Program-made: the position numbers and the translations under genes
Notes under the pieces: model-generated
What the model saw: only the letters and a program-made list of their open reading frames with translations
What the model was told of the DNA's origin: nothing
The model's database searches: none
Part shown: piece by piece, positions 5,702-31,660 of the stretch
How the letters are laid out: each line of letters starts with the position of its first letter
Numbering within the stretch: the first letter of the stretch is position 1
NCBI GenBank assembly: GCA_017882265.1
Contig: JADGPW010000117.1
Coordinates: 1-33,137, forward strand
DNA from: Chitinophagaceae bacterium
GTDB lineage: Bacteria > Bacteroidota > Bacteroidia > Chitinophagales > Chitinophagaceae
DNA length: 33,137 nt
Direction of reading: 5' to 3'

Positions 5702-5712
5702 GGGGAAGGGGG

Positions 5713-5748
5713 GGAATTTTGGAATTGGGAATTTGGGATTTTGTAATT
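5713..5748. repeat. Heptamer array, GGAATTT type
   Basis: AATT or GATT recurs at 5715, 5723, 5730, 5737 and 5745, a spacing of 7-8 bases. The array abuts the hppA promoter, where the -33 element would be expected. Confidence 0.55.
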
Positions 5749-5776
5749 GAGTCCGTAGGCTATAGATGCCTGATTT

Positions 5777-13528: not shown

Positions 13529-15388
13529 TCACATTCTTTCAGGAACTTTTATTCCCAGCATATGCATTCCCGAAGCGATCACATTCGCCGTCATTTCAGA
13601 AAGTTTCAGCCTAAATTGTTTTTTTTCTTCTGATTCTGCATTCATGACCGAATGTTCCGTATAAAAAGTATTGAATGATTTGGCAAGATTGAAAATATAA
13701 ATAGCAATGACGGATGGATTGTGCTCCATACAAGCCTGTTCAATGATCGTTGGATATTGCTCCAGAGAAATAATTAAGTCTTTTTCGAGTTTTAGCAGAC
13801 TCCTGTCACGATAGCTATCGGGAGCCGACTGCCTATTGCCTTGTACAGACAGGGCATGCCCTGTCTCTACTGCCGACTGCCGACTGCCGACTGCCACCTG
13901 CTTCCTCAATATCGACTTGATCCTTGCGTGAGTGTACTGGACGAACGGACCGGTGAATCCATGAAAATCCACCGACTCTTCGGGATTAAAGACCATCCTT
14001 TTCTTTGGGTCAACCCGCATCAGGAAAAATTTCAGGGCGCCCAGGCCAATAATTTCATATAATTCCTTCAACTCCTCTGTATTAAAATCTTTTATTTTCC
14101 CCGATTCTTCGGTATGTTTTGCAGCAATAGTCACCATCTCATCGATCAGTTCATCCGCGTCTACCACAGTACCCTCCCTGCTTTTCATCCTTCCCGAAGG
14201 CAATTCTACCATACCATAACTTAAATGATACACCCCATCGGCGTAGGGCTTATTCATTTTCTTCAGAATAAGTTTCAGCGCTTTCATGTGATAGTTTTGT
14301 TCATCACCGATCACATAAATGCTCTGGTCGTAATGGAACTGTTCATATTTCTGCTGCGCCAGCCCAAGGTCCTGTGTCATATAGACAGAAGTACCATCTT
14401 TACGTAATACCAGTTTTTCATCCAGCCCCTCTCCGGTCAGATCAGCCCAGACACTGCCATCCTCTTTTTTCACGAATACGCCTTTTTCCAGGCCCTCTTC
14501 TACCGATTTTTTCCCCAGCAGGTAGGTATCACTTTCATAATACATGATATTGAAATCACTCCCGATCCGTTTGTAGGTGGTATCAAACCCTTCGTATACC
14601 CAGCCATTCATTTTCTTCCAGAGTTCGATCACTTCGGGCTTACCGGCTTCCCAGTCAAGCAACATTTGCTGGGTTCCTTTCATGATCGGGGCTTCTTTCT
14701 CCGCTACATCCTTTGATTTTCCTGCGGTCATTAATTCTTCAATCTGGCGTTTGTATTCGTCATTGAATTTTACATAATACTCACCTACCAAATGATCACC
14801 CTTGGTATGGGTTGATTGCGGCGTGGCGCCGTTCGCAAACAATTGCCAGGCGATCATGCTCTTACAGATATGAATACCCCTGTCATTTACCATGCAACTT
14901 TTTATCACCTCATAGCCGCAGGTTTTCAGTATTTCTGCTACACTCCAGCCTAAAAAATTATTACGCAGGTGCCCTAGGTGCAATGGTTTGTTTGTATTGG
15001 GAGAGGAGTATTCCACCATTACTTTCTGCCCGTTAGCGGGTTTGGAACCAAACTGCGGGTCAGCATAATTGGATTGAAGAAAGCCGATCCAGTAATCATC
15101 TGCAATGACCAGGTTCAGAAAACCTTTGATGACATTGAAGGTTTTAAATAACTGAGGGTTTGTATTTACCAATACTTCGCCAATTTCATTACCTAAAAGT
15201 TCAGGTGATTTTTTTAATTGTTTAACAAAGGAGAAAAGAACAAGGGTATAATCGCCTTCAAATTCCGGCTTGGTAGGACTGATGGTAAGATCGGATTCAT
15301 TAAATCCTTTAACTCCCGGGATATCTTCGTACAGGCTATTTAAAGCCTTTGCTACTAATGGTTTTATCTCAGTTACAATACTCATCAT
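13529..15388 (-). CDS. argS: Arginine--tRNA ligase with a repeat-derived insertion
   Basis: 619 residues. It charges tRNA-Arg with arginine. An N-terminal Arg-tRNA-synthetase domain (about 1-95) is followed by the class I catalytic domain with the HIGH-type motif HLGH at 137-140 and a KMSKS-type motif MKSREG at 401-406. The DALR anticodon-binding domain starts near 481 (GPFVQYTHARI). Residues 498-528, between KSILRKQ and SLLKLEKDL, are encoded by a composite intergenic-type repeat (13805-13897) in frame and look unlike any ArgS. They fall in the linker at the start of the anticodon-binding domain, where length varies, so the enzyme is probably active. ATG 15388 or the next codon (15385) is the start; a -7 box lies at 15403-15410. 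Confidence 0.95.
   Translation of the reverse strand: MMSIVTEIKPLVAKALNSLYEDIPGVKGFNESDLTISPTKPEFEGDYTLVLFSFVKQLKKSPELLGNEIGEVLVNTNPQLFKTFNVIKGFLNLVIADDYWIGFLQSNYADPQFGSKPANGQKVMVEYSSPNTNKPLHLGHLRNNFLGWSVAEILKTCGYEVIKSCMVNDRGIHICKSMIAWQLFANGATPQSTHTKGDHLVGEYYVKFNDEYKRQIEELMTAGKSKDVAEKEAPIMKGTQQMLLDWEAGKPEVIELWKKMNGWVYEGFDTTYKRIGSDFNIMYYESDTYLLGKKSVEEGLEKGVFVKKEDGSVWADLTGEGLDEKLVLRKDGTSVYMTQDLGLAQQKYEQFHYDQSIYVIGDEQNYHMKALKLILKKMNKPYADGVYHLSYGMVELPSGRMKSREGTVVDADELIDEMVTIAAKHTEESGKIKDFNTEELKELYEIIGLGALKFFLMRVDPKKRMVFNPEESVDFHGFTGPFVQYTHARIKSILRKQVAVGSRQSAVETGHALSVQGNRQSAPDSYRDRSLLKLEKDLIISLEQYPTIIEQACMEHNPSVIAIYIFNLAKSFNTFYTEHSVMNAESEEKKQFRLKLSEMTANVIASGMHMLGIKVPERM
13805..13897. repeat. Composite repeat inside argS
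   Basis: The 93-bp (31-codon) stretch contains, in plus-strand order, the palindrome CGATAGCTATCG (13809-13820), two heptamer-like units (GACTGCC, TATTGCC), a near-perfect 28-bp palindrome (13843-13870, one mismatched pair; perfect core GACAGGGCATGCCCTGTC at 13848-13865), and CTGCC recurring every 7 bases at 13870, 13877, 13884 and 13891. The same 28-bp palindrome occurs between genes at 15486-15513. Boundaries are approximate, taken from where ArgS-like sequence resumes. Confidence 0.8.
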
Positions 15389-15410: not shown

Positions 15411-15453
15411 CGGAATGAGGTTCCGAATACCTAACCCTGGTGCGGCGTCAGTT

Positions 15454-15513
15454 GAGACAGGGCATGCAGTAAAGACAGGGTATTCGTAGAGACAGGGCAT
15501 GCCCTGCCTCTAC
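15454..15513. repeat. GACAGGG palindrome cluster
   Basis: A near-perfect 28-bp palindrome lies at 15486-15513 (one mismatched pair), preceded by two partial copies starting GAGACAGGGCATGC (15454) and AAGACAGGG (15471). The core is the same as in the argS insertion at 13843-13870. Confidence 0.8.
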
Positions 15514-15541
15514 AATCTACAAACAATAATCCACGATACAC

Positions 15542-15716
15542 AATCCTTGTTCATCCGTTCGACATTCAATATTTCCTTTGCTGCCAATCATGCGACGCCC
15601 AGACTTGCGAATAATATCATTCTTTTCGGATTATTAAATTGTTCACCTTCGGCATTCTTAAATCCTTGTTCATCCGTTCGACATTCAATATTACCTTTAC
15701 CGCCAGCCATGCGACG
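15542..15716. repeat. Direct 56-bp duplication ending on the GtrA start codon
   Basis: Bases 15542-15597 and 15661-15716 match at 51 of 56 positions. Both contain CCTTGTTCATCCGTTCGAC and both end ATGCGACG, the start codon and first bases of the GtrA-like gene. The first copy opens a 15-codon frame beginning MRRP before a stop. Confidence 0.85.
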
Positions 15717-24241: not shown

Positions 24242-24368
24242 GAATATCGAACAGATGAACAAGGAATAAAGAATGTAGAAGTTATACATTCCCTAAATTA
24301 CTGCAGTTCTTTTATGTTCGTGAATCACTTTATCTGTTCTTCATTCCTTGTTCATCTGTTCGATATTC
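24242..24368. repeat. Inverted repeat with 26-bp perfect arms
   Basis: Bases 24242-24267 are the exact inverse of 24343-24368; one mismatch further in, the arms reach about 32 bp. The arm core CCTTGTTCATCTGTTCGA recurs (C or T variants) at 15545, 15664 and 29597. The right arm encodes the last residues and stop (NIEQMNKE, TGA) of the 180-residue membrane protein. Units ending GTTC or ATTC recur about every 7 bases, so it belongs with the heptamer elements. Confidence 0.85.
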
Positions 24369-27726: not shown

Positions 27727-27817
27727 GGGGAATTAGGAATTTGGCGCAGCCTTCATATTAATGAGAAGTTTAACCGGGAGGGAAATCCCAAATTCCAAAT
27801 TCCAAATTCCCAATTCC
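27727..27817. repeat. Inverted heptamer-array element
   Basis: GGAAT at 27729 and 27736 forms a short left array (27727-27744). After 40 bp, ATTCC recurs at 27792, 27799, 27806 and 27813 (with ATCCC at 27785), exactly every 7 bases, in the inverse sense. The element sits between malQ and the epimerase gene and could fold into a hairpin after malQ. Confidence 0.8.
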
Positions 27818-27825
27818 TATTACTC

Positions 27826-29559: not shown

Positions 29560-29618
29560 GAATGTCGGAGTGTTCAACTTCATCTGTTCGACATTCCTTG
29601 TTCATCTGTTCTACATTC
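29560..29618. repeat. TTCATCTGTTC repeat cluster beside the M13 peptidase stop
   Basis: TTCATCTGTTCGACATTC (29579-29596) and TTCATCTGTTCTACATTC (29601-29618) are direct copies with one difference, 22 bp apart. GAATGTCG (29560-29567) pairs with CGACATTC (29589-29596). The last base overlaps the stop codon of the M13 peptidase gene. Same family as the arms at 24242-24368 and the copies at 15545 and 15664. Confidence 0.8.
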
Positions 29619-31660
29619 TACCAGATCCTCACTCTCAAACTATCCGGCCGGTACATCGCATCACCTGGTTTGATATTAAACGCTGTATAAAACTCATCCA
29701 CATCCTGGAAGGGCCCGTTGACACGATACCTGGCAGGGGAGTGGACATCAGTTAATAGCCGGCTGCGTAGCTGCTCTTCTCTCATTTGAAATAACCAGCC
29801 CAATGCATAGCCAAGGAAAAACCGTTGCATGGGTGTCAGTCCATTGATCTTTTCCCCTTTCTTATATTGCTCTGTTTTTTTGAAGGCATCAATACCAAGC
29901 AATATCCCGCCGAGGTCGGCAATATTCTCGCCCTGCGATGCTTCCCCGTTAATATGATAACCCTTAATGGGTTCGTAATCGCTGAATTGTTTTATGATAA
30001 CCTGTGCTCTCTTTGTAAATTCAACAGAATCTTTATCTGTCCACCATTTCGAAAGATTTCCTTTTTCGTCATATTTCCTGCCCTGGTCGTCAAAACCGTG
30101 GGTTATTTCATGCCCGATCGTAGAGGCCGCTCCATAGCCATACACAATGGCATCATCCAATTCTTCATCTTTATAGCCGGGCACAATGAATTGTGCGGCG
30201 GGTAAGGTGATATCATTATTGGAAGGATTGTACTCGGCATTATAGGTTTGTGGGGTCATCCCCCATTCATCCCTGTCTACCGGTTTGCCCAGTTTATTAT
30301 GTTCGAAATTATTTTCCCAAATATTGGCATTGACCACATTCTGAAAATAGCTTTCCGTACCAATATCCATCTTTGAATAGTCTTTCCATTTATCCGGGTA
30401 ATACACTTTCTTTTTCATAGTTGCCAGTTTCACATACGCTTTCTGTTTGGTACTATCACTCATCCAGTCCAGTTTACTGATATGATCTTTTAAGGCATCC
30501 CGGATCGCTTCGGTCATTATTTCATAACGTTGCTTATCCCTTTCACTGATATAGAGTTTTACATATAGTTGTCCGAAAATTTCACCCATCAGGCCATTCT
30601 CCTGTGTAATCACCCTTTTCCAACGCGGTCTTCTTTCTTTAGCTCCATTAAAAAGTCGCCCGAAATTGAAGGCAGCAATACCATAAGCATCTGGTAATTC
30701 CTGCGAAAAACTATTGATAAACCGGAATTTCAGGTAACTTTTCCAGAGAGCAAGCGGAGTGGTGGTCAGCATATTATCCAGGGCTTTAAAGAATTCGGGT
30801 TGGCCCACCACTACCGAATCAATCCTTTTAATGTTGGTAGTATTAAGAAAGGAAGTCCAGTCGATAGACGGTGATAATTTGGAAAGATCAGAAATAGCCA
30901 CTTTATTATAATTCTTATAATCATCTCTCAGGTCTTCCAGTTTACGGGATGCCTGGGCAAGTTTTGTCTCCATGGCCAGCATATTCCTGGCATCGGCACC
31001 TGCACTTATACTATCCTGGCCAGACATCGTAAGTATCTTTGTAATATATTTTACATATTCATTCCGGATATTAATGGTAGCATCATCATTTTTAAAATAA
31101 TATTCTCTTTCGGGCAATCCTATACCACCCTGCCAGAGGGTATAGGCCATTTCATCGCTTTTTTTACTATCCTGGCTTACAAAATCAGAAAATAAACTCG
31201 AAGAGCCGATATTCTTCATTTCAGCTACTACGGCCAGGAATGATTTCAGGTCCGAAATGGCATTGATCTTATCAAACCAGGGTTGGAGCGGTTTTAAACC
31301 CATCTTTTCAACCCCTGTGCTATCCATAGCCATTTTCCAGAAATCTCCGATCTGCTGATCTGGACTTCCTTTTTCCGCTTGGGCCGTAATAGCTTTTTCA
31401 TTGATCTCTTTAAAGCGTTTCAGGTTTTCTTCATTTACCAGGTTCCCGATACCCCAGGCACTCTGGTCAGGTGGGATGGGATTCTTTTTTAACCATCCGC
31501 CATTGGCGTATTCAAAGAAGTCCTGGCCAGGACTGACAGTTGTATCCAGGTTTTCATAAAGGATATCTCCTTTTTTACTAACCGTACCTGATTTGCTTTT
31601 ACACGAAAGGGTGGAAATGGAAAAGACACTGAATGCCAGAATTGGAATGAATAATCGCAT
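29618..31660 (-). CDS. M13 family zinc metallopeptidase (neprilysin/PepO-like), probable lipoprotein
   Basis: 680 residues, the usual length for bacterial M13 enzymes. The signal peptide ends at a Cys near residue 20 (STLSC), an acceptable but not ideal lipobox. The N-terminal M13 domain has DFFEYANGGWLKKNPIPPDQSAWG near 45-70. The zinc site is HEITH at 517-521 with the third ligand Glu578 in GENIADLGG. The C-terminal VNGPFQDVDEFYTAFNIKPGD...W is also typical. It cleaves small peptides in the periplasm or at the surface. A perfect -7 box precedes it; its stop codon touches a repeat. Divergent from the outer-membrane barrel gene. Confidence 0.93.
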   Translation of the reverse strand: MRLFIPILAFSVFSISTLSCKSKSGTVSKKGDILYENLDTTVSPGQDFFEYANGGWLKKNPIPPDQSAWGIGNLVNEENLKRFKEINEKAITAQAEKGSPDQQIGDFWKMAMDSTGVEKMGLKPLQPWFDKINAISDLKSFLAVVAEMKNIGSSSLFSDFVSQDSKKSDEMAYTLWQGGIGLPEREYYFKNDDATINIRNEYVKYITKILTMSGQDSISAGADARNMLAMETKLAQASRKLEDLRDDYKNYNKVAISDLSKLSPSIDWTSFLNTTNIKRIDSVVVGQPEFFKALDNMLTTTPLALWKSYLKFRFINSFSQELPDAYGIAAFNFGRLFNGAKERRPRWKRVITQENGLMGEIFGQLYVKLYISERDKQRYEIMTEAIRDALKDHISKLDWMSDSTKQKAYVKLATMKKKVYYPDKWKDYSKMDIGTESYFQNVVNANIWENNFEHNKLGKPVDRDEWGMTPQTYNAEYNPSNNDITLPAAQFIVPGYKDEELDDAIVYGYGAASTIGHEITHGFDDQGRKYDEKGNLSKWWTDKDSVEFTKRAQVIIKQFSDYEPIKGYHINGEASQGENIADLGGILLGIDAFKKTEQYKKGEKINGLTPMQRFFLGYALGWLFQMREEQLRSRLLTDVHSPARYRVNGPFQDVDEFYTAFNIKPGDAMYRPDSLRVRIW

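Follow-up and report, generated by a model that had tools for sequence, protein, structure and literature searches.

Seven-base-pair repeats with embedded palindromes lie in frame within ArgS and other conserved enzymes of a Chitinophagaceae bacterium

The window, which is the whole 33,137-nucleotide stretch of DNA that was analysed (contig JADGPW010000117.1), comes from a metagenome-assembled genome (MAG) of a Chitinophagaceae bacterium, of 4.02 Mb in 293 contigs and approximately 90% complete. It carries argS, and within this gene lies a composite of short repeats that is continuous with the reading frame. The features of this region are as follows.

13529..15388, minus strand: argS (arginine--tRNA ligase), 619 aa, an intact ORF that is single-copy in the assembly
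13805..13897, minus strand: residues 498-528 of ArgS, the stretch of the loop that derives from repeats, from sequence, translation and ArgS alignment
13806..13823, no strand assigned: P18 palindrome TCCCGATAGCTATCGGGA with 1 mismatch, the argS copy reading TCACGATAGCTATCGGGA on the plus strand
13824..13842, minus strand: degenerate heptamers, seen in the sequence, that separate P18 from P28 in argS
13843..13870, no strand assigned: P28 palindrome GTAGAGACAGGGCATGCCCTGTCTCTAC with 1 mismatch, the argS copy reading GTACAGACAGGGCATGCCCTGTCTCTAC on the plus strand
13871..13895, minus strand: heptamer array seen in the sequence, GGCAGTC on the coding strand (TGCCGAC on the plus strand)
15486..15513, no strand assigned: intergenic P28 copy, 97 nt beyond the argS start codon

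Three types of module encode the ArgS loop, namely sense-strand GGCAGTC heptamers, the 28-bp palindrome P28 and the 18-bp palindrome P18. P28 ends in GTAG...CTAC and is fully palindromic, so GTAG reads on both strands. A first-pass annotation of this DNA had located the composite correctly, in both coordinates and composition, and had proposed that no stop arises across it; translation confirms that the 619-aa frame is free of internal stops. It had also pointed to the same palindrome between genes at 15486-15513, and this copy is indeed 93% identical to the one in ArgS and is preceded by a half copy of P28 at 15446-15467.

The protein scores 402.5 bits against TIGR00456 (cut-off 261.65), contains the Pfam domains tRNA-synt_1d and DALR_1, and is the only ArgS match in the assembly. 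The earlier reading, that an essential tRNA synthetase carries a repeat in the linker at the start of its anticodon-binding domain, holds in that the repeat is in frame and the gene single-copy. Its position needs amending, as the repeat does not lie just before the DALR anticodon-binding domain (residues 483-619 by Pfam) but inside it, where the structural model places it after the first helix and before the second. The AlphaFold model of ArgS (pTM 0.89) has an intact fold and agrees with solved ArgRS structures; in it the repeat-derived segment lies between helices 480-508 and 533-543, with pLDDT below 50 at 508-527.

P28, the heptamers and P18 are all dispersed repeats of this MAG, far beyond chance. 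A genome search for the 28-bp palindrome had been suggested in the first-pass annotation, and it returned 20 sites when up to 3 mismatches were allowed, where a reversed-pattern control gave none; the heptamer pattern (an 18-mer) has 137 matches in the genome and P18 has 69 sites, each again against 0 in the reversed-pattern control. P28 was rejected as a family-wide marker, being present in only 11 of 246 genomes. Composites are modular, with heptamers, P18 and P28 varying in order and number, and the junctions between P18 and heptamers are nearly constant across several genes, which suggests that composites are copied as units. A further module, GTCACCCCGAGCGTAGCCGAGGGG (peptide VTPSVAEG), recurs in several interrupted genes (L166, L167, L176). 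The window also holds a MITE-like inverted repeat (24242-24273 / 24337-24368) with 32-nt arms that are 97% complementary and 63 nt apart, with relatives at 15526-15568, 15645-15687 and 29577-29619, and a second type of 7-bp repeat in the form of AAATTCC-like AT-rich arrays (2891-2919, 5708-5749 and 27783-27819).

The argS case is no oddity, since the same modules occur in about 20 enzymes of this genome. The survey covered 600 kb of stretches picked around repeats, and its counts are therefore not a genome-wide rate: 102 repeat clusters were found, 30 of them inside ORFs of at least 200 aa with at least 40 residues on each side. About 20 insert-carrying proteins are recognised by Pfam or NCBIfam, and the count of insertions excludes L153 as well as ORFs whose start or end falls within an array. 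The carriers are ArgS, PGK, ValS (two or three inserts), UvrA, class II ribonucleotide reductase, LpxB, IspG, PDH-E1, two E2 acyltransferases (one with four arrays), MazG, AnmK, an ABC-F ATPase, an RsmB/F-type methyltransferase, BirA, an Lhr-type helicase, a P-type ATPase, UbiD, a Kdo transferase, a 2Fe-2S oxidoreductase and an alpha/beta hydrolase. PGK is the cleanest case of insertion. Its 36 extra residues, (QSAVGSQ)n, lie between LSELLN and VTVLFANDC and occur in none of 29 aligned orthologues, and the genome has no second full-length PGK. The AlphaFold model of PGK (pTM 0.85) likewise keeps an intact fold, with pLDDT below 50 in the insert, and in both the ArgS and the PGK model the insert is predicted to be a disordered loop that leaves the fold intact. 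The inserts of PGK, ValS and MazG coincide with gaps in alignments to PDB structures. PdxJ (L191) was dropped as a carrier, as its alignment to PDB 6w6a is gap-free and it thus has no insertion.

The ArgS loop is variable among relatives. In an alignment of 110 ArgS proteins, the region between the RKQ and LLKLEK motifs is 41 aa long here compared with 18-36 aa in relatives (mean 22); the sister lineage has 25 aa and most others have 18-23 aa. Many relatives fill this site with different heptamers. The net gain is about 16-21 aa, and the 31 repeat-derived residues are not cleanly inserted into a loop that is otherwise fixed. At the same site the sister lineage (G013, L032) has GTCCCGATAGCTATCGGGAC and degenerate AGTCGGG heptamers; the linker of L063 is identical, and the P18 copy of L032 and L063 is perfect. 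In a tree built without the linker, ArgS from this genome and from the nearest lineage are sisters (support 100/99). On the simplest reading of these sequences, P18 would have been gained once at this site, in an ancestor, and P28 and the clean heptamers would have been either gained later here or lost in the sister lineage.

A period of seven bases runs through these linkers. Among 107 distinct ArgS linkers, the same-base frequency is 0.361 at lag 7, 0.337 at lag 14 and 0.347 at lag 21, compared with approximately 0.25-0.28 in random in-frame windows of the same argS genes, and other lags have no comparable rise. Tested against base shuffles, 22 of the 107 linkers are periodic at P<0.01, where about 1 would be expected. 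As 7 is not a multiple of 3, this signature cannot come from codon structure, and the period therefore separates a DNA-level origin from protein-level evolution. The repeated unit differs by lineage, being ACCATGG in L134, CTCGCAT-like in L080, GGGCGGA in L135, GTCAATG and ATTCACC in L094, and TTCATGG in L142. Other palindromes are found in the linkers of L079 and L107, and many relatives' linkers have heptamers without any palindrome. Linkers can be unrelated even where the rest of the protein is similar, as in L064 and L066 (ArgS 93.5% identical) and in L094 and L134 (86% ArgS identity).

Recurrence of these repeats was assessed with a chimeric query of ArgS linkers against their own source genomes. 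Among the matches listed, the linker repeats of L080, L134 and L094 have dozens of further copies in their own genomes and those of L063, L135, L090, L142 and L107 have several; the L080 and L135 repeats were, again among the matches listed, confined to their own genome. The linker heptamers of L064, L069 and L072 had little or nothing elsewhere in their own genomes among the matches listed. The ArgS loop is an indel-tolerant site and a recurrent sink, refilled by lineage-specific heptamers.

The same periodicity is seen in fused PDH-E1, where the linker between the two halves has same-base frequencies of 0.397, 0.340 and 0.374 at lags 7, 14 and 21, and 8 of 31 linkers reach P<0.01. This linker contains P18 and GGCAGTC heptamers in our genome, compared with ACCATGG heptamers in G277, which carries the latter also in porphobilinogen deaminase, a class II (D/K/N-type) tRNA synthetase and an epimerase. 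A further genome, G274, has its own heptamers inside MutL and other proteins. The PDH-E1 linker of L288 (genome G014) is 89 residues long and consists largely of heptamer repeats.

We consider it probable that the heptamer arrays, together with the palindromes embedded in them, spread and expand, and that selection keeps only those copies that are in frame, lack stops and sit in tolerant loops. The dispersed 7-bp tandem repeats (GGCAGTC in this genome) would reach new places in the chromosome and grow locally through replication slippage combined with copying or recombination from one heptamer array to another, the palindromes travelling as passengers. Copying of heptamer arrays fits the data, since the P18 junctions are near-constant in several genes. 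Numerous copies are found immediately 3' of genes. Those inside genes would survive only if their length is a multiple of three, if they are free of stops and if they fall in a tolerant surface loop or inter-domain linker, and survivors would presumably be translated as flexible filler. No enzyme responsible for the spread was found in the approximately 90% complete assembly.

P28 and P18 could instead be mobilised by a Y1 (RAYT-type) transposase as REP- or MITE-like elements, with the heptamers as their preferred target. In favour of this are the GTAG termini of P28, which recall those of GTAG REPs (PMC3733652), the two Y1_Tnp genes of this genome (L061, L062), and the P18 junctions, which are near-constant in several genes and show a possible CGGC duplication there. 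We regard it as unlikely, however, as neither of these genes has P28 within approximately 1.5 kb (the nearest P28 variant is approximately 2.7 kb from one of them), the inverted repeats that flank L061 are unrelated to P28 and P18, the heptamers of many relatives' linkers have no palindrome beside them, and the constant junctions are explained equally well by the copying of whole composites.

Around arrays outside long ORFs, none of 10 tandem ORF pairs was a gene split by frameshift; this supports selection for frame, in a test that is small and imperfect. There was no signal of peptide-level selection in the mismatches of coding arrays, which number 32, 41 and 39 by codon position (P 0.55), and because they are spread evenly the insert peptide appears to be filler. 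GGCAGTC lies on the coding strand in 23:3 of the arrays inside genes. This bias was rejected as a sign of coding selection and is not a coding effect, since non-coding arrays near gene 3' ends (up to 60 nt from the stop codon) are in sense orientation at an equally strong 22:3 (22/25); examples of sense-oriented arrays beside gene ends are L175 (3861-4074) and L179 (6339-6530), and convergent genes bear an inverted pair. The bias may point to transcription or RNA-level effects. Folded as RNA, P28 in argS forms a hairpin (-17.2 kcal/mol, z -4.6) and the whole insert reaches -47.1 kcal/mol (z -4.4); a known structured RNA was rejected, as the insert has no Rfam match.

This strong folding, and the sense-oriented arrays that adjoin gene ends, are what would be called upon if the repeats were kept for a function, with RNA hairpins or loop peptides regulating expression or enzyme activity. 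We think this improbable, given that the inserts are common to unrelated genes, that all aligned relatives lack the PGK insert, that linker content turns over fast, and that codon positions are without constraint and Rfam holds no match. Translational bypassing is known in other systems, and the hairpin could be taken to mean that the insert is bypassed by the ribosome or removed, but in about 20 genes the frame is kept and stops are absent, neither of which bypassing would require, and this explanation is hardly credible. An assembly artefact, conceivable in a MAG as fragmented and incomplete as this one, is highly implausible for an insert of only approximately 93 bp that has counterparts, differing from each other in sequence, in about 20 genes on different contigs, and where P18 also occupies this position of ArgS in L063, a MAG that was deposited separately.

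The first-pass annotation had likened the repeat to the Rickettsia palindromic elements, which are hairpins of 105-146 bp with terminal inverted repeats, reported from 19 reading frames, with a product that is tolerated in the case of gmk (PMC2229807). The arrangement is shared, as in both systems dispersed palindromic repeats occur between genes and in frame within conserved proteins. The composition differs, since the main module here is not a palindrome alone but a 7-bp tandem repeat in which palindromes are embedded; in place of a single 105-146 bp unit bounded by terminal inverted repeats there is a modular composite of 7-bp arrays and 18-28 bp palindromes, in Bacteroidota and with units that differ by lineage. 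GTAG and CGTC REPs are mostly intergenic, with some inside genes including tRNA synthetases and uvrA (PMC3733652). P28, at 28 bp and with GTAG...CTAC ends, resembles GTAG REPs, which are short palindromes of 20-40 bp that carry GTAG at their foot. It is unlike them in being tagged at both ends instead of one, and in lacking the RAYT association (REPtron), as the two Y1_Tnp loci of this approximately 90% complete assembly have no P28 within approximately 1.5 kb; moreover, heptamers dominate here. No GTAG families are reported from Bacteroidetes in that study (PMC3733652).

Heptamer arrays occur in many bacteria, among them the TAACTGA heptanucleotide tandem repeats of Beggiatoaceae, Cyanobacteria and five Bacteroidetes, which are abundant and mostly intergenic; slippage has been proposed for repeats of this kind (PMC4679880). 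They share with the present arrays the 7-bp period (lags 7, 14 and 21) and the dispersal, seen here as own-genome matches, but that study does not describe heptamers entering many conserved proteins in frame, or filling the same linkers repeatedly. The first-pass annotation knew of no earlier description of its case, but in-frame intragenic palindromic repeats, tRNA synthetases included, are already known from other phyla (PMC3733652, PMC2229807). No account of in-frame heptamers in Bacteroidota proteins was found in the open-licence literature, and the papers searched likewise did not contain the combination seen here, in which a period of 7 goes with units peculiar to each lineage and with linkers that are refilled repeatedly.

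These repeats mark a route from non-coding repeats to protein sequence, in which the same loops of universal enzymes are refilled by each lineage's heptamers, and at a speed that leaves closely related ArgS genes with unrelated linkers. It is possible, though we put this forward tentatively, that in Chitinophagaceae an active process, perhaps coupled to transcription, writes lineage-specific 7-bp repeats into DNA and repeatedly overwrites those loops of essential proteins that tolerate it, non-coding repeats thus being a main source of new linker sequence. Loops of these proteins serve poorly as phylogenetic or functional markers, in length and in sequence alike.
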